Source of the DNA: a virus
Direction: 5' to 3' (one strand)
Length of the DNA stretch: 64,000 nucleotides
Virus record (IMG/VR): IMGVR_UViG_3300035698_023197
Coordinates: 1 to 64,000 of that record
Shown here: one piece after another, positions 4,970 to 63,927 of the stretch
How positions within the stretch are numbered: position 1 is the stretch's first letter
Layout: every line of letters begins with the position of its first letter
The notes under the pieces: generated by a model
Databases searched by the model: none
What the model was told of the DNA's origin: nothing
The model's input: the letters and a program-made list of their open reading frames with translations, nothing else
Position numbers and translations under genes: made by a program

Positions 4970-6598
4970 TTATAAACCACCAGTCCAGTGAATTGAGTCT
5001 CGCCACCATTTAGGGAACGACATGGCTGCGCGATTATAAAACTGGCGGAATCCGCCGTCTAGAATGTAAGTCACGCCAACATCCTTGGTGCTGCGGACTA
5101 TTCGGCCTGATCCCTGCACGAATGTCTGGGCAACCTGCTCGTTGTACCAGTTGGTATCAACCTCTTTGCGTCTCTTGACCCACGAATCACCGAGATACGG
5201 GTACGGCACTTTGGGGAAGATTGCGAATCGCCCAAGATCACCGGGAAGGTCAACACCTTCAGTCATGCTTGGTGATAGCAGGATAGTCGGTTCTGGGCTA
5301 GCAGCGTGCTCGGCGAGGAGTTCGGCTTGATTCTTCCCGCGACGGTGGCAAATAAAGCGCTTCTTGTGGCGGCTCAGCTGTTCGATCATGCGGCAGATCT
5401 TGAAGCTATGAGCGTGGATGATCCCCTTCCGGGTCGATGCGTAACTGCCGTCAAGGATGTCGTCCATGGCGTCGATGATCCTGGGCATCTGCATGGTGAT
5501 GTTTCCCATGTTGACCGGGGCAGTCCCGCATCCTTTGTAGATGATTCGCCGCTGATCCTTGTGAAAGGGTGACTCAAGCCGCAGCAGGTCGTAGTCCTCG
5601 TCCCAGCCAAACCAGCTGGCCATGCTCTCCGGGTTGAGCAGCGTCGCGGACGTCACAAGCACTCTGGTGTTCAATGGGGATATGAGCCGCTGAAATATGC
5701 CCTTGGCGTAAAGGGGACGCCAGAGGACGTGAGCCTTGGTATCTCCGTCAGCGTCAACCGCATCAACCACCCACTCGTTGACTTCTCTGGTCCCACCTTC
5801 GGTGTCGAAGGAGTCCCACAGCACGTGACCAATCTGGCCGACTTTGGGCTCGAGCGAGCGGAGCTGGTGCATTTCGTCCTTCGACATCGACTTGGCATCC
5901 TTCGAGAATCGGGATTTCAAGATGCCGACCCGCGCCGAGGCGGCAGCAAAAAATCGGTCGAGAAGCTGCTCCGAGTCGTCAAGGCTATCCGGTAGATAAA
6001 ACGAGATGTCGAGGCTGCTGCAATCCGCTGCAGTGATCTCTAATTGGGCGGCTCCCACGAGGGCGGGCTCCAACTGGTGTCCCTCATCCATGAGGAGCCA
6101 GCGGTGCGTGCCTTGCCACTCGGCGTGACCGAGGGTTGCCAGAAGCCATGCGTAGTTGGCAATTCCACATTTGCTATTCACCATGACATCCGAGCAAGCT
6201 TGGCGGTATGGACAAGGGTTTTGGGCTCCCTGCTTCCGTCGACTACACTGGCCCGATCCCATGCCGCAGTCATTGTAGACCCCCGCTGTTTTTCTGCGAA
6301 CTTCATCGCAACCGTAGTTGGACGCCCCTTTTACGAGGGGAATCTCTGGCCAGTCTCGGGCGTACTGATCTTGAAGAAGCTTTTGAGGCGTAAGAATGAC
6401 CCCTCCTTGGCTGTTTCCTATGCTGACACAGACAGGGCTCTTACCTGTCCCGGTCGGAGCGTCGATCATGAGGTGCCTGGAATCAGACTCGTTGACGAAG
6501 TCAATCATCTCGTCCTGCTGTGGGCGCGGAGACATGTCTTCCCCACAGTCCCACTTGATGGGTGGCAGGTCTACTTCGTCTTCTTCTATGGTCGGCAT
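4970..6598 (-). CDS. XPD/DinG-like superfamily 2 DNA helicase with Fe-S cysteines
   Basis: 542 aa from the ATG at 6598. The Walker A is APTGTGKS (47-54) and the motif II box is DEGH (171-174). Between them lie Cys97, Cys111, Cys118, Cys129 and Cys135, the arrangement of the 4Fe-4S domain of XPD/DinG/Rad3 helicases. The C-terminal half has helicase domain 2 features, including LVTSATLL and a QGSGRIVRS motif VI. An upstream in-frame start at 6697 is possible but would overlap the small zinc-ribbon ORF. I chose 6598 because that ORF's TAG ends one base before it (TAGTATG). Expected role: 5'-3' unwinding or R-loop removal in phage replication and repair. Confidence 0.85.
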   Translation of the reverse strand: MPTIEEDEVDLPPIKWDCGEDMSPRPQQDEMIDFVNESDSRHLMIDAPTGTGKSPVCVSIGNSQGGVILTPQKLLQDQYARDWPEIPLVKGASNYGCDEVRRKTAGVYNDCGMGSGQCSRRKQGAQNPCPYRQACSDVMVNSKCGIANYAWLLATLGHAEWQGTHRWLLMDEGHQLEPALVGAAQLEITAADCSSLDISFYLPDSLDDSEQLLDRFFAAASARVGILKSRFSKDAKSMSKDEMHQLRSLEPKVGQIGHVLWDSFDTEGGTREVNEWVVDAVDADGDTKAHVLWRPLYAKGIFQRLISPLNTRVLVTSATLLNPESMASWFGWDEDYDLLRLESPFHKDQRRIIYKGCGTAPVNMGNITMQMPRIIDAMDDILDGSYASTRKGIIHAHSFKICRMIEQLSRHKKRFICHRRGKNQAELLAEHAASPEPTILLSPSMTEGVDLPGDLGRFAIFPKVPYPYLGDSWVKRRKEVDTNWYNEQVAQTFVQGSGRIVRSTKDVGVTYILDGGFRQFYNRAAMSFPKWWRDSIHWTGGL

Positions 6599-8563: not shown

Positions 8564-8592
8564 ATTTTACCACACATTGGGGTGTCTGTCAA
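8564..8592 (-). promoter_or_regulatory. Sigma70-type promoter for the DUF932-like gene
   Basis: On the minus strand: TTGACA (8587-8592), 17-base spacer ending ATGTGTGG, then TAAAAT (8564-8569). The leader to the ATG at 8508 is about 50 bases, the only clearly non-leaderless member of the promoter family. Confidence 0.85.
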
Positions 8593-8695: not shown

Positions 8696-8724
8696 TTGAC
8701 AACCACCTTCGGCTGTGTTATACT
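8696..8724 (+). promoter_or_regulatory. Consensus sigma70 promoter abutting the SF2 helicase ATG
   Basis: TTGACA (8696-8701), 17-base spacer ending CTGTGT, TATACT (8719-8724). Only 6 bases separate the -10 box from the ATG at 8731, so the predicted transcript starts at or next to the initiation codon. No Shine-Dalgarno fits in that space. Confidence 0.9.
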
Positions 8725-8730
8725 CTTGGC

Positions 8731-9951
8731 ATGACGAAACGAGAGAAATTTGAAGTAATACTCCACGAGGTGGCAAACACCAAGCAGGTGGAAACACGGA
8801 CCTTTCAAGGGAGAATCCGGACCAAGGTGAACGATGGGTGGGATGTTGGGATGATCTCCCAACTGATCGTCTCCCCCACCGGGTCTGGCAAGACCGTAAT
8901 GGCACTGATTGCCGCCAAGGATTTCGTGATGGAAATCGGACCGAAACTCTACGGCTGCAAGCCAGAGGAGATCGGGGTATGCTGGGTTGCGATGCGACGA
9001 AACCTTCTCGCACAGACGGAGAAGGCCAACTGGCAACTGCAGTTCGAAGAGGACGTCAAACTCGACAACGACAATGTGCTTTGCCCGAATATCGAGTACG
9101 TCTCAATGTTCGATAAGGATGCGAAAGAGCGGATGGCGAAATACAAGTACGTTTTCCTCGTCATTGACGAAGCCCAGCACGATGCGGCGTCAACGATGGT
9201 GACACTCCATTCGGAAGTCAAGCCAGATGTGGTGCTTGGCCTCTCCGCCACCCCGATGCGGTCCGACAACCTCAAGATCTGCTTTCAGCGAGAGATCCGA
9301 GATGCGGGCTATCACTTCCTGATCCAGGACGGTTATCTCAGCCAGTTCAATCATTGGGTGATGCGGGAATGGACACCGAAGAGTGTCGCCAAGCTTTACT
9401 TGAAGACGAGCCAATGGGGCAAGTCGCTCGCCTTCTTCCTGACCCGCGCTGAGTGTGAGGAATTCGCTTCCTACGTCAGGGACCCTTCTCTGATCGGCCT
9501 CGCCGTCGAGGCTCGCAAGGTGGAGATCGTCCACGGCGGCTCCAACAAGGTTGCACAACTGGACATGTTTGAGCGCGGCGAAGTCGACGTTCTAGCATCA
9601 ATGGCGGTCCTCACGGAAGGTTTCGATTGCCCGTCGTTGGAATCAGTCTTCGTTCGGGACACTCGGTCAAAGGGACCATGCATCCAAATGAGCGGTCGAG
9701 TCCTCCGCCTCTGGGAGGGCGTCACCAAGAACATCATCCAGTCGGGCGGGACGACTTATCCCTTCACCCGGTTTGCCCACGCCAAGACCCAATTCGTGGA
9801 AGAGGAGACTGGCAAGTGGACTTCGATCGGGTCGAATGACCGGGTCGACCACGTTGTCAAAGACATGATGCACCGGATGGTGTTGGCAGTGCCACCGAAG
9901 CTCCCCGACTTCCTGAGCGGCAAGAAGAAGGTGGTCCCGGTTCCTAAATGA
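8731..9951 (+). CDS. Superfamily 2 DEAD/DEAH-type helicase (UvsW/RadD-like)
   Basis: 406 aa. Motif I is SPTGSGKT (48-55), motif II DEAQH (146-150), motif III SATPMR (172-177), and helicase domain 2 ends with motif VI QMSGRVLR. Motif pattern and size fit phage SF2 helicases such as T4 UvsW, which unwind R-loops and branched DNA. It is read alone on the plus strand, divergent from the DUF932-like gene, from a consensus promoter placed 6 bases before the ATG (predicted leaderless). Its 3' end overlaps the convergent tape-measure gene by 8 bases. Confidence 0.88.
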   Translation: MTKREKFEVILHEVANTKQVETRTFQGRIRTKVNDGWDVGMISQLIVSPTGSGKTVMALIAAKDFVMEIGPKLYGCKPEEIGVCWVAMRRNLLAQTEKANWQLQFEEDVKLDNDNVLCPNIEYVSMFDKDAKERMAKYKYVFLVIDEAQHDAASTMVTLHSEVKPDVVLGLSATPMRSDNLKICFQREIRDAGYHFLIQDGYLSQFNHWVMREWTPKSVAKLYLKTSQWGKSLAFFLTRAECEEFASYVRDPSLIGLAVEARKVEIVHGGSNKVAQLDMFERGEVDVLASMAVLTEGFDCPSLESVFVRDTRSKGPCIQMSGRVLRLWEGVTKNIIQSGGTTYPFTRFAHAKTQFVEEETGKWTSIGSNDRVDHVVKDMMHRMVLAVPPKLPDFLSGKKKVVPVPK

Positions 9952-18661: not shown

Positions 18662-18940
18662 CTATTGGGGAGGCGTCTCGGTCCATGCGGCCTGTGTGAC
18701 CTTGTTGAACTCATCGATGCCGCCGAGTGCTGCCTTCATCACAACCGCTCTACGTTGGCGAGTGTTGCCTTCGACGTGTTCAGCGGCAAAGTTACCCAGC
18801 GATATGTGCGCACCGTATCCGTTGACTGCCCATGCGGTGCTTGCCCCAACCGATACGGTGTACCTACCCATGTGGTATTCGGTTTTGACGTTTGGGGCTC
18901 GGGATTTCTCGAGCAATCGGACGAACTGGTGCGTGTTCAT
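18662..18940 (-). CDS. Small probable early protein, 92 aa
   Basis: Begins MNTHQFVRLLEKSRAP; mixed alpha/beta, mildly basic, no Cys motif, no family recognised. It is preceded by its own consensus sigma70 promoter with 11 bases between the -10 box and the ATG, so the leader is very short and lacks a Shine-Dalgarno. The dedicated promoter marks it as an early, host-RNA-polymerase-read gene, typical of host take-over or accessory functions. Confidence 0.65.
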   Translation of the reverse strand: MNTHQFVRLLEKSRAPNVKTEYHMGRYTVSVGASTAWAVNGYGAHISLGNFAAEHVEGNTRQRRAVVMKAALGGIDEFNKVTQAAWTETPPQ

Positions 18941-18951
18941 GCGTTACTTTT

Positions 18952-18980
18952 AGTATAACACAGGGTTGCGACTTTGTCAA
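18952..18980 (-). promoter_or_regulatory. Consensus sigma70 promoter for the 92-aa gene
   Basis: Minus strand: TTGACA (18975-18980), 17-base spacer ending CTGTGT, TATACT (18952-18957). It lies immediately after the stop region of the upstream gene. Confidence 0.9.
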
Positions 18981-21117: not shown

Positions 21118-22008
21118 ATGGACCCAAACAACATCACGGCCAGGATCATTGCCGACAGCCAGAACACTCACGGCCAACGACTTACCAGCTTTCTTCTCCG
21201 ATATCCGAGGTTCATCCATTCGGAATTGATGACGCACCGGATGCTGAGCCGCAATGCGGCGTCGAGCAGAGCTATCCCAGTCAAGCGGATGATCGCCACT
21301 ATCAGAGCCAACCCGGCGCTTCCTGAATGGTGGGGAGCCACACAGCGCGGCATGCAAGCCAAGGCCCAGGTCGACGAGGCGGCACTGGCCATCTGCAAGG
21401 ATTTGTGGATGCAACAACGAGACCTAACCGTCGAAACTGTCTCGCAGCTTTTGGACGCCGGGTTGCACAAGCAGATCGCTAACCGACTCCTTGAACCGTG
21501 GAGCCACATCACGGTACTCGTCACTGCTACCTGTTTCAGCAATTTTTTCTCGCTGAGAGCCCACCCCGATGCCCAACCCGAATTTCAAGTACTGGCCTAC
21601 AAGATGCTCCAACGATTTTTGGGGCAGTCTCCAGAGGATGTCGCTGAGGGTGAGTGGCATATGCCGTTCGGCGATCAGATGGACGACAGCATGGACCTCC
21701 AGCAGCGGCTCAAAGTCGCCACGGCTCGCTCCGCCCGACTGAGCTACAACACATTCGACGGCGTCATCGACCCACTCAAGGACTACGAGTTGCATGACGA
21801 TCTGGCAGCTTCTGGCCACTGGTCCCCCTTCGAACATTGTGCCATGGCCGACCCTGTCGTCGTTAGTTCCGGCAACTTCCGTGGCGGCTGGCGTCAGTAC
21901 CGTGCCACCTTCGAACGGGAGAACAGGACAGCAGTCGACCTCGACAGAATCCTTGCCGACAAGCCCGACTGGATCGACACTGCAGAGCCCGTGGAGGTTG
22001 CGGCGTGA
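21118..22008 (+). CDS. thyX: Flavin-dependent thymidylate synthase ThyX
   Basis: 296 aa. The ThyX signature is present as THRMLSRNAASSR (residues 39-51), fitting the RHR-x2-S-x-N-x2-S-x-R pattern with Thr in place of the first Arg. The C-terminal half contains the conserved HWSPFEHCA segment and an RQYRATFERE stretch. The enzyme makes dTMP from dUMP using FADH2 and methylene-tetrahydrofolate, supporting phage DNA synthesis. Its TGA overlaps the GTG start of the DNA polymerase gene, so the two are coupled. The length is above the ~230 aa of compact ThyX proteins but common among phage versions. Confidence 0.92.
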   Translation: MDPNNITARIIADSQNTHGQRLTSFLLRYPRFIHSELMTHRMLSRNAASSRAIPVKRMIATIRANPALPEWWGATQRGMQAKAQVDEAALAICKDLWMQQRDLTVETVSQLLDAGLHKQIANRLLEPWSHITVLVTATCFSNFFSLRAHPDAQPEFQVLAYKMLQRFLGQSPEDVAEGEWHMPFGDQMDDSMDLQQRLKVATARSARLSYNTFDGVIDPLKDYELHDDLAASGHWSPFEHCAMADPVVVSSGNFRGGWRQYRATFERENRTAVDLDRILADKPDWIDTAEPVEVAA

Positions 22009-25000
22009 GCGAAGATGATGGCCCAAAGCCGGGGACAACCAACCCGCTATGCGAAAAGTGTGGCTTCCACAAGCTCTGCAAGAGTCCCTTCCAGACGGTA
22101 GCGTGGATCGACAAGAATGGGTCGCCCCACAAGGGCATGCCGCCCGAGGATGAGAAACCTGAAGAGGGGTGGCTCGCCGTGGTCGGAGACGCCCCGGACG
22201 TGCGGGCTGACAATAATAACGACATCCGAGCCAGTGAATCCGTCCGGTTCATGGCGAAACTCGCCCAGCAGTCTCTCGGTATCTCGGGTCGGGTCGTCTA
22301 CTTCCCAACTCTGCGTTGCATGCCCCGCAAGCTGCAGGAGAACGAGCTAAAAGACGCCAAGCCGACCAAGACTGAGCTTGCTCGTTGCTTCGATAACTTC
22401 ACGAAGCCATTAATTGAAAAGCTCAAGCCGAAAGGCGTCATCGCATCCGGCTACCTCGCGTCAAACCGAGTCATCGGGCGGATGGACTTTCAGAACCTCG
22501 TCGGGCGGACCTATAGCTTTGCGGGTGCTCCATCCCGCGCTGTGTGGCCAGTCGACTATCTGCTGCGCGACACGGCGGGCCAGAAGCAGGAGTTCATGAG
22601 CATCTGGCGCGATGCCTTGGATCGGATCGACAATCCGGACCTGAAAAACGTCTGGAGCGACACGATCGATTATGACTTGGTCACGACGCCCGAAGGGTTG
22701 TTGGCCTGGTTTCGCCCGCTCCTCGCTTATTTCAAGGAGCAGCGAGCAAATGGCGAGCGGGTTGTACCTGTGGCGTGGGACTTGGAGACCTCGTCACTGC
22801 ACGTCTTCCAGCGAGCGTACTACACAGGTCTGATCTCCTTCGACCACAAAACTCAGGCCAATCCGCTGGTCGTCCCGCTCAAATATCCTGGGGCAGACAA
22901 GATCTACCGCCGAGAAAATCCGGACGATCCGCGCTCTTGGGAAGAGTGCCTGACGCAAATCGACGCGATTTTGAAGAAGCTGCTGGAGTCTCCAGCCATC
23001 CCGAAGACAGGCCACAACTTGATGTACGATGAGGCGGGAATCTTCGCCGACTACGGGTACGAGCCCAAAGGCTTCTACGCCGACACGATGTTGCTGAACT
23101 TCATTCTCCACCCAGAGGAGAAGGGCTTGAACTCGTTGGACGACATGTGTCGCAAGCTGCTACCAAACATTCCTCATTACTGGGAGAGGTTGTACGCGTA
23201 TCGGCAAGAACATGAGATCGAGACTTACATGGACATACCAGAGGCGACTCTGTTTCCGTATGCTGCGTACGATACTCGTGTCACGTCCATGATTCTAGCC
23301 GAACTCGAGAAGCAGCTCGACAACGACGAACATGGCGGCTGGTTCATGCGGACCACAGAGCCTCCAGAGACGCCGACTTATTCGATGCGGGACTATGCGA
23401 TCCATGGCAGGAGCGTGCACCACAAACTTTGCGGACACCTGCAGCGGTTTGGCCAGCACTATGACGAGGATCTCGTCGAGCAGATTTACACCCACTACGA
23501 CGCCCTGCGCAAAGACTGGGGAGGACAGCTGGCCGAAGATGAGGACTTGATCCGGTTTGAGACCGAGATGCTGGGACCCACGGCTGGTCCATCCACCGAC
23601 GCCCACAAGTTGTGGAAGAAGTGGCGCGAGGCTGGTATGCACCGTGCCATGGACGAGGCTTTAGATACCCAGAAGCGTGAGCACAAGATCGCTAACGAGA
23701 AGTACAAGGAAGATGCCAAGGCGTGGCGTTCTCGGTGTGCCGTCTTCGTCAATGGGAAAGTCGCAGAGATGCGAGCAATGCGGAAGGCATCTGGAAAAGA
23801 AGATCCCGGCGCGGAAAAATGGAAAGAAGTCCGCACTAAGATGAAGAGCATGTTCGAGAGGCTGATAGAAGAGCCACCACCGAAAGCCGTCGGACCGAAA
23901 GTCGGCGACTTCAAGAAGAATTTCAAAGCGACGTTCGACCTCCCCGAGGGCCACATGCCTGAGCACCTGCGCCCTCGCATCTCGTGGTCCAGTGTGCCGC
24001 AACAGAAGATGTTCTTCATCGACTTCCTCAAGCTGCCCATCCTCAAAAAGACCGAGAATGGCGGTCCAAGCCTCGATGCTGACGTGCTGCTCAAGTATTC
24101 GAATCACCCACATGGCAACGACACCGCAAAGAAGCTACTAAGCTGGCGCGGCATGGACAAGTTCATCGTCAGTTTCCTGGACCCGATCATAAACTCTGCC
24201 GAGACGGAGCCGAAAAAGAAGATCGTGCACGACGATGGGTTGATTCACTGTTCCTTCGGTGCGGGAGATACGACCACTGGCAGACTGTCATGCGTCGCCC
24301 CTTACACTGAACTTAAGACACCTTACGGTAGAATTAGAATTGACGCGGCACAACCTGGTATTTTGGTGGACTCAGGGAACGGTAATTACAAGCGTGTCAA
24401 AGAAGTTTATTATAAAGGTATCTCCCCGATGTTCCGTGTTACCAACGGGAGGGGTGACCATCTCGACTGCACCATCGATCACAAACTCCTTACCCCAACG
24501 GGGTGGCGGCGAGTTGGAGATCTCTGTGAAGGAGATCTGCTGTTACCAGCAAATAACAACGTGGAAGTTGGAACACCCAGTGATCTTGAGCGGTCAAAGG
24601 AGGTATCAAATATTGTCCCCGGAGAGCTACCAGACGTTGTACCTTGCTCAAGCCTTACCCCGCAAATGGTTTGTCGAGAGGGGGGTAAAAACCAACATAC
24701 TAGTAGTGTCTCAAGCTTTGTACGGGGGGAAAGCGAGCGCAAGGAAAAGAGAATTGTGCAGTTCGACTCCGTGGAATCGAGGGTCAAAGAATCCGCCGTC
24801 GGTTCTACTGGGGAAAGAAGACCTGGAGAAGATGATACTTTTGGGGCTTCCTCCAGAAGGGATGGCGAAGATGATGAAAGTGTCTCCGTTTTTGTTGAGT
24901 CGCAACTTACAATGGCACGGCTTGGCGGAAGGAGTGGGGAGGCGTCTGGGCAACTTGACAGACGCAGACTGGGTGATGATGGGAAAACTGGAAAATTTCG

Positions 25001-27641
25001 CCCCAGGGTTGATGGATACAGCGAGAGATTACTTCTGCAACCCGGGTCCTTACTTCGACAAGTTGTACGAGGCGCATTTGGCATGGATGGACATGCGGTT
25101 ACTAATACTAAAGGCCAAGTCTTCGCATTCCTATCACTGCGGGAGGGGAAATGTACCGAAAAACCAGATTTGTTGGTCTATCAACCAGGCAGAAGCGTTG
25201 CTATCCACGGAATTGTCGAGGCGCGGGATTCAGCACGTGAGGGAATGGCCGATGGACAGCGGTCCATCCTCCCGGATGGTAGATTTTCTAATCAACAATG
25301 TCGTGGTGGAAATAGATGGAACACAGCACTTAGAGAAGAAAGAAGCGGACGATCAAAGAGACGAGGAGTTGCGTTCGAGGGGGTTGGTGGTGGTGAGAGT
25401 CCTGGAAACGACGATCAGGAAATCTTCCACCAATTGGGTGGGGGAGACGTTACTGCCGTTGTTAGTATTGCCCCGATAGGGGAGCAAGAGGTGTGGGATA
25501 TTCAAGTAGAACAGGATCACTCGTACGCATCCGGCTCGTTCGTTTCTCACAATAGCAAGCGGCCCAATATGCAAGCCATCCCACGAGATGGTCTGGTCAA
25601 GAAAATCTACGGCTCACGATACGGCAAGCAAGGTTGGATCATGACGCGAGATTATAGCGGGCTGGAAGTTCGGATCATGGCCTTGATGGCGCGGGATGAG
25701 GCGTTGCTTCATTCTTTCCGGACTGGTGGCGATCCGCACTTCGACATCACTCAGAAACACTTCTTCGGGGAGAAGGCCAACGCCAAGGACAAGACCCAAC
25801 GGTCGATCTGCAAACGAACCCTGTTCGGCAACATTTATGGGCAAGGCGACAAGGGGCTTTTCGAGATGCTCACGGGTGAGGCCATTATCTCGCCAAACAC
25901 CGGAGAGCCTGTCACTCTCGAGGAGTGCGCAGAGTTCAACAAGATGTTGTATGAGGCATTGCCGGGTGTTGGTGTGTGGACGGACCTTGCACATGAACAG
26001 GGTATTCGCCACCACTGGGCGTGTTCGGCCTTCGGGTTTGTGCGACCGCTCCCAGATCTCAAAAGTTACAAGGCCATGAAGGCCCAGGAAGCAAACAAGT
26101 CGTGGGACGAGAGGCAAAACGACCGCCGATTGAGGATGTTGAGCATGGACGTTTCAAAGGACTTACGCAGGTCCCAAAACATGCCAATTCAGTCCTGTGC
26201 ATCTGACCTCACAGTATTTGCCGCATACTGGATCAACCGCCAATTTGAGCAAGAAGGACTCGACACCCGCGTCTTCAATGTTGTACACGATGATATATGG
26301 TGTATGACAGAGGATGTACACGTCCTCAAGTGGGGTGATGGGTGGGTGACCCACGACAAGTTAGTCGAGGGAGACAAAATCCTCACAAAAAATCCTGAGA
26401 CAAAGTCTTTAGAATGGCAACCAGTACTGCGCAAAACTTACTTCGGAAAACAGCCAGTAAAAAGAATAAAGCACAGAACCATTGACGTTACCACAACCTC
26501 AAATCACCGATGGCTCGCCGACAATAAAAGCGGGAATACTCGCACACTTCTGACATCGGAGTTGGAAAAGCTGTCCGATAGTTCTGGGAGGGTGCACAGA
26601 ACTGGGGTCAATGGGAATGCGGATAGCGATTACTCCGACGACTTCCTTTCCCTGGTGGGTTGGGTCATTACTGATGGGTCAATGACGCAACCAAAAAGAG
26701 GGGGGCCTCGTGGCTATGTGTGCCAAACCAAAGAGGAGGTGCTGAGTGACATGTTAACCACAATAAATCACAATGGTTGGGGCACGGGTAACGTCTCTAC
26801 AGGCGGTAGCGGATGTTCGAAGATCCACCTTAACGCAGCCACTAGTTTGCGTTTGTCCTCTATTTTGGAACCGGGATTCAAAACTCTCGACCCTTTATTC
26901 ATTTGGTCATTATCACAACGTCAGGCCAACGTAGTGTTTAATGCATCGATGCAAGGGGATGGTACGACCAGAGGAAATGCCAGGTTATTGTATTGCGAGA
27001 ACGAAAAGGAGGCGCTATCAATACAACAACTTGTGGTGGCTATGGGGTCGTCGTCTCATGCTTACAAAAGAAAAGGCGAAACAAAACCGCGATCTCTCAA
27101 GTGCGGCAGAGAGATCAAAACAAATTTGGGATGGATTGTTCACGTTTACTACTCTCCTTACTTCACCAAAGGACGCCTTAACAATTTCGAAAATAGTGTG
27201 GAAAATGTGTGGTGTCCATCGGTCGAAAATAGATTCTTTGTGGCGCGTAGTAAAGGCTTCACATTCATTACCGGCAACTCAGACGTGCCGTGCGACGACG
27301 AAGTTATCCCCGTGACATGCATCTACAAAGACACAATGGACCACGTCACCAAGTGGTTGCCAGATCTGCTCCCCGGGTACGATGCCAGCTGGATCGACAT
27401 ACCAATCATCGGGGAAGCCGAACTCGGCGTCAACCCGAAGGATGCCCTCGCGTTAGTGGAGGAACCCACAAAATACGACGATACGAAGACTCTTAAACTG
27501 CAGATTACTCTGGATGACAACACAGATGACACATATGACGTGTTTTCTAAAGACGAAGAAAAGGGATCTGCTATACTGGAGTTTGCGGGGAATGAGAGAG
27601 CCATCAAGGAGGCTCTGACGCTCAAACGGATGGTTTTTTAG
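22005..27641 (+). CDS. polA: DNA polymerase I-type replicase with N-terminal UDG-like domain and two inteins
   Basis: 1878 aa precursor; 1131 aa after removal of both inteins. The GTG start has GGAGG 9 bases upstream and overlaps the thyX stop. Residues 1-215 resemble family-4 uracil-DNA glycosylases (C16-x2-C19, C25, GDAPD near 61-65, C105, C128), as in SPO1-type phage polymerases. The 3'-5' exonuclease domain starts at WDLETSSL (D259, E261). The polymerase domain has TTGRLS at the first intein junction, motif A RDYSGLEVR, motif B KRTLFGNIYG and motif C VVHDDIW at the second junction. Splicing would give TTGRLS-SKRPNMQ and VVHDDIW-SDVPCDDE, both matching intact PolA motifs. It replicates the phage genome in the cytoplasm. 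Confidence 0.93.
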   Translation: MSEDDGPKPGTTNPLCEKCGFHKLCKSPFQTVAWIDKNGSPHKGMPPEDEKPEEGWLAVVGDAPDVRADNNNDIRASESVRFMAKLAQQSLGISGRVVYFPTLRCMPRKLQENELKDAKPTKTELARCFDNFTKPLIEKLKPKGVIASGYLASNRVIGRMDFQNLVGRTYSFAGAPSRAVWPVDYLLRDTAGQKQEFMSIWRDALDRIDNPDLKNVWSDTIDYDLVTTPEGLLAWFRPLLAYFKEQRANGERVVPVAWDLETSSLHVFQRAYYTGLISFDHKTQANPLVVPLKYPGADKIYRRENPDDPRSWEECLTQIDAILKKLLESPAIPKTGHNLMYDEAGIFADYGYEPKGFYADTMLLNFILHPEEKGLNSLDDMCRKLLPNIPHYWERLYAYRQEHEIETYMDIPEATLFPYAAYDTRVTSMILAELEKQLDNDEHGGWFMRTTEPPETPTYSMRDYAIHGRSVHHKLCGHLQRFGQHYDEDLVEQIYTHYDALRKDWGGQLAEDEDLIRFETEMLGPTAGPSTDAHKLWKKWREAGMHRAMDEALDTQKREHKIANEKYKEDAKAWRSRCAVFVNGKVAEMRAMRKASGKEDPGAEKWKEVRTKMKSMFERLIEEPPPKAVGPKVGDFKKNFKATFDLPEGHMPEHLRPRISWSSVPQQKMFFIDFLKLPILKKTENGGPSLDADVLLKYSNHPHGNDTAKKLLSWRGMDKFIVSFLDPIINSAETEPKKKIVHDDGLIHCSFGAGDTTTGRLSCVAPYTELKTPYGRIRIDAAQPGILVDSGNGNYKRVKEVYYKGISPMFRVTNGRGDHLDCTIDHKLLTPTGWRRVGDLCEGDLLLPANNNVEVGTPSDLERSKEVSNIVPGELPDVVPCSSLTPQMVCREGGKNQHTSSVSSFVRGESERKEKRIVQFDSVESRVKESAVGSTGERRPGEDDTFGASSRRDGEDDESVSVFVESQLTMARLGGRSGEASGQLDRRRLGDDGKTGKFRPRVDGYSERLLLQPGSLLRQVVRGAFGMDGHAVTNTKGQVFAFLSLREGKCTEKPDLLVYQPGRSVAIHGIVEARDSAREGMADGQRSILPDGRFSNQQCRGGNRWNTALREERSGRSKRRGVAFEGVGGGESPGNDDQEIFHQLGGGDVTAVVSIAPIGEQEVWDIQVEQDHSYASGSFVSHNSKRPNMQAIPRDGLVKKIYGSRYGKQGWIMTRDYSGLEVRIMALMARDEALLHSFRTGGDPHFDITQKHFFGEKANAKDKTQRSICKRTLFGNIYGQGDKGLFEMLTGEAIISPNTGEPVTLEECAEFNKMLYEALPGVGVWTDLAHEQGIRHHWACSAFGFVRPLPDLKSYKAMKAQEANKSWDERQNDRRLRMLSMDVSKDLRRSQNMPIQSCASDLTVFAAYWINRQFEQEGLDTRVFNVVHDDIWCMTEDVHVLKWGDGWVTHDKLVEGDKILTKNPETKSLEWQPVLRKTYFGKQPVKRIKHRTIDVTTTSNHRWLADNKSGNTRTLLTSELEKLSDSSGRVHRTGVNGNADSDYSDDFLSLVGWVITDGSMTQPKRGGPRGYVCQTKEEVLSDMLTTINHNGWGTGNVSTGGSGCSKIHLNAATSLRLSSILEPGFKTLDPLFIWSLSQRQANVVFNASMQGDGTTRGNARLLYCENEKEALSIQQLVVAMGSSSHAYKRKGETKPRSLKCGREIKTNLGWIVHVYYSPYFTKGRLNNFENSVENVWCPSVENRFFVARSKGFTFITGNSDVPCDDEVIPVTCIYKDTMDHVTKWLPDLLPGYDASWIDIPIIGEAELGVNPKDALALVEEPTKYDDTKTLKLQITLDDNTDDTYDVFSKDEEKGSAILEFAGNERAIKEALTLKRMVF
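24596..24604 (+). promoter_or_regulatory. Strong internal Shine-Dalgarno for the nested endonuclease
   Basis: AAAGGAGGT lies inside intein-coding sequence, with 9 bases from the GGAGG core to a TTG at 24613 in the +1 frame. It is one of the strongest ribosome-binding sites in the window and has no purpose for the intein frame. Confidence 0.8.
24613..25479 (+). CDS. EDxHD/Vsr-like (DUF559-like) homing endonuclease nested out of frame in intein 1
   Basis: 288 aa from TTG 24613, in the +1 frame relative to the polymerase-intein ORF. Residues 1-180 are helical and may bind DNA (SPESYQTLYLAQALPRKWFV; LPPEGMAKMMKVSPFLL). The C-terminal domain carries the restriction-fold signature of EDxHD/Vsr-type nucleases: Glu194 in the first helix, Asp224 (RMVDFL), Glu233 and Asp235 with His239 (VEIDGTQH), an Asp cluster 246-250, and a closing LVVVRVLE strand. 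The family includes I-Bth0305I and endonucleases seen between split-intein halves. It ends with TAG 74 bases before the intein end. Independent translation is inferred from the dedicated Shine-Dalgarno and the motif-bearing frame. Confidence 0.8.
   Translation: MSPESYQTLYLAQALPRKWFVERGVKTNILVVSQALYGGKASARKRELCSSTPWNRGSKNPPSVLLGKEDLEKMILLGLPPEGMAKMMKVSPFLLSRNLQWHGLAEGVGRRLGNLTDADWVMMGKLENFAPGLMDTARDYFCNPGPYFDKLYEAHLAWMDMRLLILKAKSSHSYHCGRGNVPKNQICWSINQAEALLSTELSRRGIQHVREWPMDSGPSSRMVDFLINNVVVEIDGTQHLEKKEADDQRDEELRSRGLVVVRVLETTIRKSSTNWVGETLLPLLVLPR
26301..27278 (+). mobile_element. Intein 2 with LAGLIDADG endonuclease domain (326 aa)
   Basis: Precursor residues 1433-1758. It starts with Cys (C-M-T-E-D-V); block B has TTTSNHRWLA (TxxH). 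The endonuclease domain carries two diverged dodecapeptide motifs, SLVGWVITDG and FNASMQGDG, with the acidic residue kept in each. The C-terminal block is ENRFFVARSKGFTFITGN followed by extein Ser. The penultimate residue is Gly instead of His, a known but less common variant that can slow Asn cyclisation. Insertion is directly after VVHDDIW, the catalytic motif C of the polymerase, so the enzyme is inactive until spliced. Confidence 0.9.
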
Positions 27642-29540: not shown

Positions 29541-29572
29541 TTGACAAACGTCCCCATGTGTGGTGGTATACT
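29541..29572 (+). promoter_or_regulatory. Sigma70-like promoter with 20-base spacer and extended -10
   Basis: TTGACA (29541-29546), 20-base spacer ending TGTGGTGG, TATACT (29567-29572) preceded by an extended -10 TGG. Six bases separate the -10 from the ATG at 29579, as in other leaderless members. The extra 3 bases look like a TGG duplication. Confidence 0.7.
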
Positions 29573-29578
29573 ATTGGT

Positions 29579-29878
29579 ATGACGAACGCAAAAAATAAGA
29601 TGAGAGTCCACCGGTACGCCCTAACTCTTGGAATTGACAACGCTAAGAATTTCAAAGACGACAGGTTCGGGGGTGGGGCATGGAAAATCACGGTGAAACT
29701 TGACGACGGCAACAGAGTCTGGGGGACGCTCCCACGGGCGTTCGAGGATGAAGTGGGCCGAGGCGATCGCATCCAGTTTGAAGCTGGACTGAAGATCTCC
29801 CATGACGACACTCACTTCGGGTTCTTCAAGCGGCCAACCAAGATGAAAGTCCTGGGATTGGCGACCGCAACAGCGTAA
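29579..29878 (+). CDS. Small probable early protein, 99 aa (leaderless)
   Basis: Starts MTNAKNKMRVHRYAL; basic, beta-rich (WKITVKLDDGNRVWG), no Cys motif, no family recognised. I chose ATG 29579 over upstream starts because the promoter -10 box ends 6 bases before it. It is convergent with the tube-like gene that ends at 29883. A dedicated host-type promoter suggests early expression. Confidence 0.65.
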   Translation: MTNAKNKMRVHRYALTLGIDNAKNFKDDRFGGGAWKITVKLDDGNRVWGTLPRAFEDEVGRGDRIQFEAGLKISHDDTHFGFFKRPTKMKVLGLATATA

Positions 29879-40862: not shown

Positions 40863-41016
40863 CCTCTTCCTCTTCCGTTGAAAAGGCAAGGTCTTTCTTT
40901 TTGAGCCCACGTCGACGTACCACTCGGTCATCAACGATCTCACCAGATGCGGTGATGTGTTGGGGTCTGCCCTTGCGGTGGGCGAGGCGTTCAGCCTTCC
41001 TCTTGGCACTAGCCAT
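40843..41016 (-). CDS. Small basic/acidic protein, 57 aa
   Basis: Begins MASAKRKAERLAHRKG from ATG 41016, whose first base overlaps the TAA of the Cys-rich protein gene (TAATG). The N-terminus is strongly basic, the C-terminus a run of Glu. It could bind nucleic acid or act as a small virion protein. No family was recognised. Confidence 0.55.
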   Translation of the reverse strand: MASAKRKAERLAHRKGRPQHITASGEIVDDRVVRRRGLKKKDLAFSTEEEEATEESP

Positions 41017-42692
41017 TAGGCGCAATCAGGACACTGACACTTGCCAGAATTACCGCAGTCATTGCAAAAACGCTCACTATCATTTTTGCCGTGGCAACTG
41101 TAGCACTCGATTTCTCGTGCACCGTTGCAAGATCCGCAGCGCTCTTCGCTATCACGAGGACCTCCGGACTCGTTCACCATGAGAGCGCCATTGGCCATCT
41201 CTTGTTCGATCACGGAGTCACGGACGATGGCAATACGACCTTCATCATTCTCGGAGAAAGAGGGATAGTACATTATGACAGCCTCTTCACCGTCTTTGCC
41301 GTCCCGTGCTTCTTTCACCATCCCAGGATACTGCTTCTGTAGACCGTCAGGAAGTTCACGGGGGCGAACAGATTCGAAAAATTCTTCATCGCCTTCATTG
41401 CAATCAATGCAAAGTCCAGCCTCGCCACAACTGTCGCATATTGAACGTTCACACCTTTCGCAATGGTCCATCTCGTCTTCGAACCCCTCGTTTCCGCAAG
41501 GGCATCCAATAAACTCTCCTTCCAGCATGGCGTTGAACGCATCAGCAGACTCCCCAAAGTGGAGGTACTCGTCCTCACTCTTTACACCAGCTTTCTTTTT
41601 CAGCTGTTGGACGCGCTTGTAAAGCTTGTCGTGCGTCTTGTTGGAAGCGGACTGCATCTGCCGATTGAGCTTGCGAAGTAGTTTCAGCGTATCTTCTCGG
41701 GATGCTTCTTCTATGTCGTCGTCATCGTCTTCTTCACCGGAGAAGTGGAACAGGATCTGCTCGATGTCGGTAAGGTACTCGTGTGTGATCTCCTCTTTTT
41801 CGATAGACATCTGCAGCCACTCGATGGACCAAATGCCGGTGCCGCGAATCTCGTCGTTGGATGATCTCGCACGAAAGTGGATGTCGCCGGGACGATTCAT
41901 CGCCTGTTCGTCGGTGTAGTTACCCTCCCAAGCTTGGAAAATCAGCGTGTCCCCGGTTTTATTGAATTGGTCCTGATCAGCAGTGATCGTGATACGATCT
42001 TTTTGGAGGAATGCCTCCAAGTCTTCGAGATACTCTTTGTCGTTCTCAAATTCCGGCTCGTCGTGGTGGTCGCCTTTCTCGCCCCAACTCTCGCCGACGG
42101 TGTAAGGATCTTCGTCTTCTTCGACGACTTCTTCAGGAACAGTGTAAACGGTTTTACCTTCGAGGAGCATACCACCAATATAACACGGATTCGACGGTTT
42201 GTCAAGTTTCCGTACAATACCAAGCCAGTTCTGCCGCTCTACGCCTTCACCATAAACGCCAGGAAGTCCCCGTGTCGTTTCCTTCTCGCTGCCATATGCA
42301 CTGGGGTTCTCATCTTCTTCCTCATCTCCAAGCGCAACGTCGTCCTTCGGGATGCTGGTGATGCGGTTCGGATTTTCCGGGTCCACAACGTCAACTTCGC
42401 GACCGTCGCTGCGGACAACCTGAAGCTTTTGGATCTCACCATCAGTGACGCGAGCGACCTCTTGGCCGGGTTGATGCTCATCGTCTACCCCGTAGGCCTC
42501 AGACTGAAGGCCGATGATCGGGTTTGACTCTAGTTGCTTGCGCTTGCGCGATTCAACGTAGTAAAAACCGTTGTGGGTGTTGGATACTAGGAAACCAGTA
42601 CTGACAGCCTCATTGATCTGAGCGTCATTGTATCCGTGAGATAAGAGGCGGGCACGAGACCACGCTCCGTTGATAGTGATGAGAGGTTTCAT
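41016..42692 (-). CDS. Cys-rich zinc-finger protein, 558 aa, with an internal promoter and start
   Basis: One frame of 558 codons; the ATG overlaps the upstream TGA. Residues 1-174 form a winged-helix-like start (INGAWSRARLLSHGYNDAQINEAVSTGFLV) and a basic/acidic linker. Residues 175-400 are very acidic (runs of Glu and Asp). The C-terminal 160 residues carry clustered Cys pairs: CPCG, CERCE, CDSCGEAG, CIDC and a final DnaJ-like series CGSCNG, CYSCHGK, CNDCGNSG, CQCPDC. A consensus sigma70 promoter lies in the coding sequence with its -10 six bases before Met175 (42170), so a separate 384-aa product is predicted. Function unknown. Confidence 0.65.
   Translation of the reverse strand: MKPLITINGAWSRARLLSHGYNDAQINEAVSTGFLVSNTHNGFYYVESRKRKQLESNPIIGLQSEAYGVDDEHQPGQEVARVTDGEIQKLQVVRSDGREVDVVDPENPNRITSIPKDDVALGDEEEDENPSAYGSEKETTRGLPGVYGEGVERQNWLGIVRKLDKPSNPCYIGGMLLEGKTVYTVPEEVVEEDEDPYTVGESWGEKGDHHDEPEFENDKEYLEDLEAFLQKDRITITADQDQFNKTGDTLIFQAWEGNYTDEQAMNRPGDIHFRARSSNDEIRGTGIWSIEWLQMSIEKEEITHEYLTDIEQILFHFSGEEDDDDDIEEASREDTLKLLRKLNRQMQSASNKTHDKLYKRVQQLKKKAGVKSEDEYLHFGESADAFNAMLEGEFIGCPCGNEGFEDEMDHCERCERSICDSCGEAGLCIDCNEGDEEFFESVRPRELPDGLQKQYPGMVKEARDGKDGEEAVIMYYPSFSENDEGRIAIVRDSVIEQEMANGALMVNESGGPRDSEERCGSCNGAREIECYSCHGKNDSERFCNDCGNSGKCQCPDCA
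42177..42205 (-). promoter_or_regulatory. Intragenic consensus sigma70 promoter
   Basis: Minus strand: TTGACA (42200-42205), 17-base spacer ending CCGTGT, TATATT (42177-42182). Six bases to an in-frame ATG at 42170, fully inside the 558-aa ORF. Confidence 0.85.
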
Positions 42693-50750: not shown

Positions 50751-51179
50751 TCATACTCTGGTAAGGTGCTTCGGAATCGATGCCATAAGAGCATCAAATT
50801 GAGCGTGCTCGGTACGGATTCGGTCAACTTCGGGGAAGTCAGCGGGAAAGTTGTCCGGGTTGGACCATGTATTCACCCATTTCTTCTCTGGGGAGACTTT
50901 GATTTCTTCTTGCCCGTCGTAGCAGTAAGAGGGTTTGCCCAAAGTCTTGGCCATCCAGATGCAAAAAGTATGCGCTGGATCGTAGCTCCCATAATCGCAG
51001 CCAGCGTAGGTACCATCAACGTCGTTACAATCTGTATAAGACAACTCTTCCATGCGCGGATTGACACTATATTGCCACGGATCACCCGGAGTAACGGGGT
51101 CCTTTTCCAAGGCCTCCAAGAATCGAGCCACCACCGGGCGCTCGCTCGTTGTCAGGCGGACGTAGACGCTATACCCCAC
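50751..51179 (-). CDS. Unknown protein, 142 aa
   Basis: GTG start at 51179 with AAAGGG upstream, overlapping the stop of the 81-aa gene; longer readings run through that gene in another frame. Composition is soluble with an Asp/Tyr-rich loop (DCNDVDGTYAGCDYGSYD) and a Trp-rich centre. No family was recognised. It is probably co-translated with the leaderless 81-aa gene. Confidence 0.6.
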   Translation of the reverse strand: MGYSVYVRLTTSERPVVARFLEALEKDPVTPGDPWQYSVNPRMEELSYTDCNDVDGTYAGCDYGSYDPAHTFCIWMAKTLGKPSYCYDGQEEIKVSPEKKWVNTWSNPDNFPADFPEVDRIRTEHAQFDALMASIPKHLTRV

Positions 51180-51414
51180 AACATGCCCTTTCGTGCGAGT
51201 CTTCAATTTCACGGGCAATCTCAAACGCGGCTTGAGACTCTTCGGATGCCGGGGCGATCCTTCCGATGACGTTTTGCGGGGCTCTCTTGAGGGGTCTGTT
51301 GGAGGCCTTGGCCTCAAATTCGGCGGCGAATGCCGCGTCGTCCATCAGGTCGCTCGTGTCTTGGTGGGTCGGGAAAGCTTCCCGCATGTCTTGTTTGGTT
51401 GCTGCTGCTATCAT
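51169..51414 (-). CDS. Small acidic protein, 81 aa (leaderless)
   Basis: Begins MIAAATKQDMREAFP; helical, acidic, with a Cys-Cys near the C-terminus (RACCGV). The ATG is 6 bases from the -10 box of a consensus promoter, so the transcript is predicted leaderless. It heads a short unit with the 142-aa gene. The early-type promoter suggests a host-interaction or accessory role; nothing more can be said. Confidence 0.65.
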   Translation of the reverse strand: MIAAATKQDMREAFPTHQDTSDLMDDAAFAAEFEAKASNRPLKRAPQNVIGRIAPASEESQAAFEIAREIEDSHERACCGV

Positions 51415-51420
51415 AATAAT

Positions 51421-51449
51421 AGTATAACACAGACTTGAGGGTTTGTCAA
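51421..51449 (-). promoter_or_regulatory. Consensus sigma70 promoter for the 81-aa gene
   Basis: Minus strand: TTGACA (51444-51449), 17-base spacer ending CTGTGT, TATACT (51421-51426). Six bases to the ATG at 51414. Confidence 0.9.
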
Positions 51450-54212: not shown

Positions 54213-55054
54213 TAGTTCAGTGTTGAGTCAAAGAGTGCAACCGCACTTGCAGCGCGGATCATTGGGATGAAGGTTTCGTCGTAGCTCGGAAGCTCGTTGG
54301 TACTGGCCTTGATGATGCGGGCCACCTGGGGTGAGACCACTGGCAAGAAGTCTGCGGCGGACTTCATCGCGGCACGGCGGTCGAGGTCGGATTTGGTGAC
54401 TTCCATCTTCTCAAGCTTTTCTCCGAGTGTTGCCGAATTGTGCTCAAGGTCGTAAAACTTGTCGATGGCACCGAGTAATGGAACGAGATTACCTGCGTCG
54501 AGCTTCCTCTGTAGTTCCCTCGCGGCGTAGCATATGGTAGACCATGGTTGGCCCCCAAATCGTTGCCCCAATGACTCTCCGGCTTCGTCGGCGTATCCTG
54601 TGGTCTGCCACATCGGGTCTTCGAAGAGGTCGCCGAGTTCTTCCCAACTCGTAAGTTCCTCAGCAGCGTCCCCGCGAGCCCGAACACCATCAGCGCTCCA
54701 ATCGTGGGCATTTTGGAGCAAAACTTGCCCGAGTTTCATCCGGGACTGAGATTGTTTGAACCACTTCCACGCTTCCACGTCAGGAATGACAAAGTGTTCG
54801 ACTGAGTGGGTTGCCTCCGCGATCCCAGCATCCCACGTATCACTGAGAAGCCCAGCCGCCACTTCCTTGGCTGATTCTTCTAGCATCCAGTCGATGCGCT
54901 GGGACCGTCCATGGGAGGAGATCTGGTCGATTCGATAACCGTAGGTCTCCCGACCAGAACCAAGGTCCCACCACAGCGCGTACAGCGCGTAAAAGTCCAT
55001 CATGGCCGTTGCCCCGTCGGCTGGAAGGGTGTAGGTAGCTTCTCTTAAGTCCAT
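54212..55054 (-). CDS. Unknown protein, 280 aa
   Basis: Helical, Trp-rich N-terminus (MMDFYALYALWWDLGSGRE) and a long helical middle with HSVEHFVIPDVEAWKWF. The C-terminal Ala/Ile-rich helices look soluble. No family was recognised. It overlaps the large protein by one base and the sulfotransferase by 10 bases, so all three share a transcript. Confidence 0.6.
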   Translation of the reverse strand: MDLREATYTLPADGATAMMDFYALYALWWDLGSGRETYGYRIDQISSHGRSQRIDWMLEESAKEVAAGLLSDTWDAGIAEATHSVEHFVIPDVEAWKWFKQSQSRMKLGQVLLQNAHDWSADGVRARGDAAEELTSWEELGDLFEDPMWQTTGYADEAGESLGQRFGGQPWSTICYAARELQRKLDAGNLVPLLGAIDKFYDLEHNSATLGEKLEKMEVTKSDLDRRAAMKSAADFLPVVSPQVARIIKASTNELPSYDETFIPMIRAASAVALFDSTLN

Positions 55055-55881
55055 TTTGTATAATTAGCTGATGACTGGGGTGTACGCCAGAATTCCAGAC
55101 CTGGGTCGGACCACTTTTTGGCGAGGGCTGTTCCCAGTACGCTGCTTGCGTCGGTAGGGACACGTTCGACAACCCGCCGAATGGTGTGGAGGTCAACAGA
55201 ACCGTGGACGGAATCATCCTCATGGGTGTACTGCTCCACATTAGTCCAGTCCCAGTCGATTTTTTTCTCGATGTCTAGGAACTTGTAGACCTTCTTCATG
55301 GTGTTTGTTGGGAACTTCGTCAATGCATCGAAATCGACGAAGTGGAGCCTATTCCCATACCTCTTGTGCATGGCGTCTTTGAGCCTATTATATGCTAGAC
55401 CGAAAGGGCTTTCTAGTCGCATCCAGTCGTCGATACGACCTTCGATTGTCTGGCCCTTCATGTAGTCGCCGTTATGCTCTCCGATGGCGACTTGCCTACG
55501 GTGGATCTTCTCGAAACTAGAGAAGATCTGGGCGATACAACGAACGGGGACTAGGATTTTGGCCTGATGCCCCAGAGCGAACTCCAGCATTTCCAGCAAG
55601 GAAATCCACCCACGACCTTTGTCGATGATGATATGGCGGTCAGTGTCATGGTAGTCATGCAAGATTCCCCAAAGCACCCGCTGCAGGTTCTTGGGATCAG
55701 CCAGAGACTTGGCGGCTTTGTGTTCCGTCAGCTTTGCCCAGTGGTTCTTGACGCCAAACATGACGTCGTGACACCCACTGGTTGGCGTGGTGTGGATGTT
55801 GGGATCTTGCGCCAGCATGTTGGCCAGCAAAGTGGAGCCCGAACGCGGCAAGCCGCAGATGAAGTAGATTTGTTTTGGCAT
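55045..55881 (-). CDS. Sulfotransferase family protein
   Basis: 278 aa. The N-terminal PAPS-binding loop is GLPRSGST (residues 10-17) and the 3'-phosphate-binding strand is VPVRCIAQIFSSF (111-123), the two signature blocks of the sulfotransferase fold. Cys115 replaces the residue often found there. The rest of the chain is alpha/beta without a clear acceptor-site motif. It would transfer sulfate from PAPS to a sugar, lipid or protein, possibly a host surface glycan or a virion decoration; the acceptor is unknown. It is embedded in the accessory run between the 280-aa and 125-aa genes. Confidence 0.75.
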   Translation of the reverse strand: MPKQIYFICGLPRSGSTLLANMLAQDPNIHTTPTSGCHDVMFGVKNHWAKLTEHKAAKSLADPKNLQRVLWGILHDYHDTDRHIIIDKGRGWISLLEMLEFALGHQAKILVPVRCIAQIFSSFEKIHRRQVAIGEHNGDYMKGQTIEGRIDDWMRLESPFGLAYNRLKDAMHKRYGNRLHFVDFDALTKFPTNTMKKVYKFLDIEKKIDWDWTNVEQYTHEDDSVHGSVDLHTIRRVVERVPTDASSVLGTALAKKWSDPGLEFWRTPQSSANYTKWT

Positions 55882-56258
55882 TACCGTTTGAGTGCACGTT
55901 GGCGGCGGACTTCTCCGAGTGAGACGTTGCGGCGGGAGGCTTCAGCCTTCACCGTTTCGCTCTGGTGGGTGGAACTGAGAGGAGCGATGCGAGGTTGTGT
56001 CTCCGTCCATCCCGTGTGATATTTCTTGTAAGCAGGGCAGATTACTCCACGGTGGTCGAGGAGAGCGGGACAGCCGTTGCAAGCATTTTGGGCGGATGCA
56101 GCCATGACAGCGTTGAACGTCTCACCATGCGCTTCATACGCTTCGGAGAGTTCCTTCAGATTATCGGCCCGGGTTTGGATGCACCCGGCAGTGTGGAGTT
56201 CTTGGAAAGTGCCTCTGAGTTTTCCGTTTAAGTTAGGCTGTGGAGATGTGTCTTTCAT
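55881..56258 (-). CDS. Small Cys-containing protein, 125 aa
   Basis: Hydrophilic and helical, with a CNGC pair and later CPAY, which could bind zinc. The C-terminus is Arg-rich (EVRRQRALKR). It overlaps the sulfotransferase start by one base. No family was recognised; possibly a nucleic-acid-binding accessory. Confidence 0.6.
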   Translation of the reverse strand: MKDTSPQPNLNGKLRGTFQELHTAGCIQTRADNLKELSEAYEAHGETFNAVMAASAQNACNGCPALLDHRGVICPAYKKYHTGWTETQPRIAPLSSTHQSETVKAEASRRNVSLGEVRRQRALKR

Positions 56259-56467
56259 ATTTTTGTGTCAGTTGCGGTTGAAAACAACCATTTTCCTGTG
56301 TTACAAAATTCGATAAGCAAGGGATCGTTATTATCGACTTCGGTGGGGTTCATGGCGGGGCTGCAAACGCAACCATCCATTCTCGTGACGACGCCGTCAG
56401 ACACTCGGAGCTTTCCGAGCATCGTGCAGTTGACGCCATCCCATTTTACAATCTTTTCGTTTTCCAT
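56255..56467 (-). CDS. Small protein, 70 aa (leaderless)
   Basis: Begins MENEKIVKWDGVNCTMLG; small beta-rich fold with a CVC pair. The ATG is 5 bases from the -10 box of a consensus promoter, so a leaderless transcript is predicted. It overlaps the next gene by 4 bases (ATGA). Early accessory function inferred from the promoter only. Confidence 0.6.
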   Translation of the reverse strand: MENEKIVKWDGVNCTMLGKLRVSDGVVTRMDGCVCSPAMNPTEVDNNDPLLIEFCNTGKWLFSTATDTKI

Positions 56468-56472
56468 ACCCT

Positions 56473-56501
56473 ATTATAACACAGACTTGGGCACCTGTCA
56501 A
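56473..56501 (-). promoter_or_regulatory. Consensus sigma70 promoter for the 70-aa gene
   Basis: Minus strand: TTGACA (56496-56501), 17-base spacer ending CTGTGT, TATAAT (56473-56478). Five bases to the ATG at 56467. It lies just downstream of the terminator at 56512-56539. Confidence 0.9.
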
Positions 56502-56511
56502 GTATACAAAA

Positions 56512-56539
56512 AAGGGCGCACTCGCCCGAGTGCGCCCTT
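56512..56539 (-). terminator. Rho-independent terminator after the OMP-like gene
   Basis: Perfect 13-bp stem AAGGGCGCACTCG with a CC loop. On the minus strand it is followed by TTTTTTG. It separates the OMP-like gene from the promoter of the 70-aa gene. Confidence 0.85.
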
Positions 56540-56561
56540 CGTCTTTGTTGATTGACGGAAA

Positions 56562-63490: not shown

Positions 63491-63927
63491 TAAACAAAGG
63501 GACCAGATTCTTTTAGCGGTTTTTTCTTCGCGGTTGCGTCGAGTTTCTTGAGCAGTCCCTTCGGAAGACAGGCGCTGGCAGTAGTGGAGCAATCTTCCTT
63601 GAGAGTGTTCGGCTGGAAATTGGGGCGTGATTCGGTGACGTGAGGTTGTGGTCCACCGTAAGGCTTGTTGGTCGTGATGTCAATGGTGGAGACTTTGAAT
63701 TTCTCCGGACCGTCTGCAATGCCTTCGCCACCGTGAGTGTCACCTTCTTCAGGGAGCTTATCCGCTTCCTGAATCGTGTCGTCGGCGCGGCCAGCATAAA
63801 GGTTGGTCGCAAGTTCAGTTTCGGTCAACCCCGTGTAGTCTTTCCCTCCGTGGGAAAGGTGGAACAGGTTGAATTGGCCATTCCACCTAGCTGCGTCGGC
63901 GAGATCTCGTGCTTCTTGTAAAGTCAT
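63490..63927 (-). CDS. Unknown capsid-module protein, 145 aa
   Basis: Begins MTLQEARDLADAARWNGQFNL; helical start, then a Gly/Asp-rich disordered middle and a Lys-rich C-terminus with a Cys pair (TASACLPKG). ATG overlaps the upstream gene's TGA (ATGA). No family recognised. Confidence 0.6.
   Translation of the reverse strand: MTLQEARDLADAARWNGQFNLFHLSHGGKDYTGLTETELATNLYAGRADDTIQEADKLPEEGDTHGGEGIADGPEKFKVSTIDITTNKPYGGPQPHVTESRPNFQPNTLKEDCSTTASACLPKGLLKKLDATAKKKPLKESGPFV

Follow-up and report, generated by a model that had tools for sequence, protein, structure and literature searches.

The window, by which we mean the whole stretch of 64,000 bases analysed here out of the 64,952 of IMG/VR record IMGVR_UViG_3300035698_023197, encodes a sheath, a tube, a portal, a prohead protease, a major head protein, a baseplate wedge and a UvsX-like recombinase. 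Judging from this gene content, the phage is a myovirus distantly related to T4. Also present is an ORF for a Family A DNA polymerase (1878 codons; 22005-27641, plus strand), inside which an intein splicing domain is matched; no tRNA or Rfam matches were found in the window.

An earlier note on this DNA had listed seven promoter boxes of a single family, and all seven are indeed present at those positions. Every member described here contains TTGAC(A/G). We present them in the order, from first to seventh, in which they are ranked by the matrix described below, and call gap the number of bases between the -10 hexamer and the ATG; if the hexamer is taken to span -12 to -7, +1 coincides with the A of the start codon when the gap is 6. 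The first promoter (8696-8724, plus strand; ACTTGACA-N17-TATACT) lies 6 bases 5' of ATG 8731, which opens a predicted leaderless gene (8731-9951) for an SF2 helicase of 406 aa (ResIII/Helicase_C; phrog_16). The second (51421-51449, minus strand; ACTTGACA-N17-TATACT) is found 6 bases 5' of ATG 51414 and of a predicted leaderless gene of 81 aa with no known family (51169-51414). The third (42177-42205, minus strand; ACTTGACA-N17-TATATT) is intragenic, 6 bases 5' of the in-frame ATG 42170 of a structural-cluster gene of 558 codons (41016-42692, minus strand). Because residues 1-120 of this ORF match relatives, its full-length start is placed at 42692, and ATG 42170 is by the same alignment taken as an internal codon and not the ordinary start; the site may yield a C-terminal product of 384 aa, or may be neutral. 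The fourth (56473-56501, minus strand; ACTTGACA-N17-TATAAT) matches the consensus at 12 of 12 bases and lies 5 bases 5' of ATG 56467, the start of a predicted leaderless gene of 70 aa (56255-56467) heading a tightly packed minus-strand run that extends to 51456. This run includes a sulfotransferase-like gene (55045-55881, minus strand), and a terminator-like hairpin (56511-56540, minus strand) has its T-run adjoining the promoter end at 56501, as if insulating it from upstream transcription. The fifth (18952-18980, minus strand; TTGACA-N17-TATACT) is separated by 11 bases from ATG 18940, as had been noted, which would leave a near-leaderless message with a leader of about 5 bases for a gene of 92 aa with no known family (18662-18940). 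The sixth (8564-8592, minus strand) is divergent from the first and stands 55 bases 5' of ATG 8508, with a leader of about 49 bases and no Shine-Dalgarno (SD) sequence; it belongs to the same family, yet is not leaderless. The seventh (29541-29572, plus strand; ACTTGACA-N20-TATACT) lies 6 bases 5' of ATG 29579 and of a predicted leaderless gene of 99 aa that resembles the C-terminal part of phrog_4750, of unknown function (29579-29878).

The spacer, described earlier as mostly 17 bases, has that length in six of the seven, with 20 bases in 29541-29572, and the six 17-base sites match 11-12 of the 12 consensus bases, as expected of sigma70-type promoters. The short distance to the ATG was also correctly read: the gap is 6 at 8731, 29579, 42170 and 51414 and 5 at 56467, so that in five of seven cases the predicted +1 falls on the start codon. 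The expectation that every site would precede a short gene with its ATG at +1 holds only in part, since 8508 and 18940 depart from the spacing and 42170 lies inside the 558-codon gene.

A search of the full genome for the consensus, suggested in the earlier note, was carried out with a matrix built from 16 sites of three related phages; window sites and the ATG were both kept out of the training. The seven window promoters are exactly the top seven matches in the 64,952-base record, with scores from 20.7 to 11.3, while in simulated sequence of matched dinucleotide content 0.4 matches per record exceed a score of 9 and 0.05 exceed 12. Within this record alone, three of seven TTGACA-17-TAnnnT sites have an ATG at gap 6; one of these seven pattern sites, TTGACA...TACGGT near 63683, falls outside the promoter family. 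Among the proteins scanned, a subset of the ORFs, we saw neither a phage RNA polymerase nor a sigma factor.

The three related phages, G001 (61 kb), G002 (40 kb) and G003 (43 kb), were retrieved with the sheath protein at about 56% identity, and the proteins that they have in common with the window phage are mainly structural. They are close to one another: alignments of their orthologous proteins begin at residue 1, their promoters show a single difference in 210, and substitutions at orthologous gene starts proved too few to be informative. The leaderless genes of the window have no orthologues in G001-G003, so that conservation of single window sites is not demonstrable, and no relatives were found with the 8731 helicase as bait. 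The same box recurs in these phages as AC-TTGACA-N14-TGY-TAnnnT with a -10 that departs slightly from that of the window (often TAnnGT or TAnnCT), and the cassette is carried by non-orthologous genes. In G001, an ATG occurs at exactly +35 for 10 of 30 TTGACA words, and at gap 6-8 for all 12 TTGACA-17-TAnnnT sites. When the four phages are pooled and duplicates removed, 18 of 25 such sites have an ATG at gap 6 (binomial p ~7e-27, a guide more than an exact value given how close G001-G003 are to one another).

Most of these promoters in G001 drive the strand opposite to the structural genes, and one in G003 serves the DNA ligase LigA. The family probably serves non-structural genes, and early expression would fit both observations, with one window site lying inside a structural-cluster gene. 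A further relative, L482, was reached via the head protein; it lacks SD sequences and has several boxes of the same type at gap 6. L483 is SD-poor and has one, and L485, the most distant, has SD sequences in 19 of 26 genes and none of these promoters. From these three partial records, the retention of SD in L485, which is without the promoters, suggests that the trait follows the host.

The start-site signature was read from an alignment of 20 gap-6 sites, setting aside letters fixed by the search filter. With the A of ATG as +1, position -1 is a pyrimidine (C or T) in 20/20, as expected if transcription started at that A; bacterial transcripts usually start at a pyrimidine-purine pair, the motif also seen by Cappable-seq in Akkermansia muciniphila (PMC4782308). 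A at -37 and C at -36 are likewise invariant (20/20 each), the extended -10 has T in 19/20 and G in 20/20, and the start of the spacer is biased towards (A/G)nCGTTC, with C at -27 in 18/20. From the -10 to the ATG, the bases differ from site to site but their number does not, an argument for selection on the spacing itself.

Upstream of start codons, SD-like words stay at background level in each of the four phages (the window phage and G001-G003). Missing SD sequences at the seven genes are therefore a property of the whole phage, and it was misleading to regard them as setting these genes apart: they agree with leaderless expression and are not specific to it. In G001 and G003, CA-rich, G-poor leaders with CACACACCC repeats, as if kept unstructured, precede several SD-less genes (e.g. 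G003 11475).

We measured the TAnnnT-to-ATG distance in samples of bacterial genomes. In an Akkermansia genome, 29 of 376 genes fall at gap 6, a sharp peak given that most other distances have about 4, and TTG(AC) often stands 17 bases upstream; the SD frequency of this genome is at background (12% vs 13%). Akkermansia is the best match among the bacteria sampled, having both phage features, the lack of SD and the gap-6 peak. It is also listed as SD-scarce (PMC10783764), and 10% of the starts mapped by Cappable-seq in A. muciniphila are leaderless (PMC4782308). A gap-6 peak is also found in Saccharibacteria, another Patescibacterium and one Elusimicrobia genome, all of which keep some SD. The layout is marked in the Saccharibacteria genomes G011 and G105, and at 5074-5178 of Elusimicrobia L155 two divergent promoters are nearly identical to those of the phages.

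As to the host, no relative was found by a sheath profile search of a species-genome collection, no single lineage was singled out when the phage promoter matrix was run on bacterial lineages, and G003 LigA is 26-34% identical to LigA matches in every genome sampled, which gives no pointer. Exact-pattern scans of genome and virus collections return many phyla among the matches listed. Saccharibacteria were first favoured on motif rate (75 of 147 genomes); SD in 32-45% of their genes counts against them, and they are retained only for sharing the gene layout. Exact matches are few across Verrucomicrobiota as a whole (14 of 145 genomes), even though the layout is seen in the Akkermansia sample. 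Our best guess, through this resemblance and with no direct tie to the phage, is a host from a Verrucomicrobiota-like, SD-less lineage.

We consider it very probable, from the arrangement of these sites, that they are leaderless promoters of the host main sigma factor, adapted to an SD-less host, with transcription starting from the A of the ATG. These would be strong promoters combining an A-C pair, TTGACA, a 17-base spacer, an extended -10 TGY and TAnnnT, at which the layout would have the host RNA polymerase initiate on the A. Leaderless messages are in general known to be initiated by ribosomes on a 5'-terminal AUG, and ribosomes recognising this end would be the likely route here too. The phages belong to an uncultured clade of myoviruses distantly like T4, with genes that are SD-less throughout, presumably since their host does without SD; leaderless genes may then be the ordinary expression route for short, independently transcribed units. 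Strong support for leaderless initiation comes from the exact spacing, the pyrimidine/A signature, the presence of the promoters in related phages as well and a layout shared with leaderless bacteria. The original proposal of leaderless genes read from host-type sigma70 promoters stands on spacing, signature and recurrence, and has to be narrowed for 8508, which is leadered, and for 42170, which is intragenic. Counting against it are the two window sites of the seven that are leadered or near-leaderless (8508 and 18940), the 20-base spacer of another and the position of one inside a gene.

The invariant AC at -37/-36 and the C at -27 exceed what a plain sigma70 promoter calls for, and might instead form an operator for a phage regulator, in which case the fixed distance to the ATG would be a by-product of copying a promoter-operator cassette, as the presence of the same cassette on non-orthologous genes would allow. 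We regard this as rather doubtful, given that the stretch between the -10 and the ATG has not been copied, its sequence varying at constant length, and that a candidate regulator was not found; an operator can in any case coexist with leaderless starts. It is improbable that the promoters are real and the translated messages start elsewhere, from upstream promoters, from a start site a few bases off or at a later codon. Start-site choice can shift by a few bases, and 8508 and 18940 show that members of the family need not have the ATG at +1; against this stand the ATG at exactly gap 6 in 18/25 sites, the pyrimidine at -1 in 20/20 and the matching peak in bacterial genomes, including that of a relative of a species in which leaderless starts have been measured (PMC4782308). 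A chance set of consensus-like sites near ATGs chosen by eye is hardly credible: a loose consensus scan does give 31 promoter-like sites in two 20-kb stretches, little above shuffles, but near-perfect sites are far above shuffles, the layout recurs in independent phages, and the blind-matrix ranking and the 18/25 gap-6 count refute this reading.

Leaderless transcription from the start codon remains the preferred reading, and it resembles known systems to different degrees. The leaderless genes of Akkermansia, Bifidobacterium, Deinococcus and Mycobacterium likewise have a -10 at a fixed short distance from the ATG, +1 on its A, a pyrimidine-purine pair at -1/+1 and no SD. Here, by contrast, the genes are those of myoviruses, their -35, -10 and extended -10 elements are unusually strong, and SD is missing from the entire phage genome. 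In lambda, cI transcribed from PRM, like similar single phage genes, is leaderless with its start site at the AUG, as predicted here; that is a single gene in an SD-using phage, whereas we find a repeated promoter class in SD-less phages. The middle and late genes of Thermus phage phiYS40 are described as leaderless (summarised in PMC3594737). The likeness lies in a class of phage genes on leaderless messages made by host RNA polymerase, as the promoter type would imply for the present phages. The phiYS40 promoters, which serve middle and late genes, reportedly consist of a -10-like element only, with no -35; here, instead of a single -10-like element, both a full -35 and a -10 are present, probably before non-structural genes. 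The layout itself was already known in bacteria; to this the present SD-less phages add a clade with complete strong promoters for predicted leaderless genes.

A second motif, TACGTAT, has 11 occurrences in the four phages, 9 of which lie 4-10 bases 5' of an ATG, often of structural genes (window 50414, 44160 and 43560, minus strand; G001 13500, 15948 and 60508; G003 27609). It may be another promoter box, for late genes and likewise giving near-leaderless messages. In the window, 9 of 63 genes have TTATAC in the 30 bases upstream, where 0.23 would be expected; the word stands, for instance, before ATGs 4946, 55054, 61767 and 59721 (-). Some of the sites are the promoters already described and others precede genes without TTGACA. 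We put forward only tentatively, as a possibility that may well fail, that phages infecting SD-less bacteria have reorganised their gene control around the start codon, with one class of genes made leaderless by strong promoters of host type and another, late and near-leaderless, defined by TACGTAT (and, in the window, TTATAC), start usage tracking the loss of SD in the host. The family offers a clear and testable example of phage promoters fitted to leaderless translation in a lineage without SD use, and its signature of gap 6, a pyrimidine at -1 and no SD can be of help in linking uncultured phages to hosts and in correcting gene starts.
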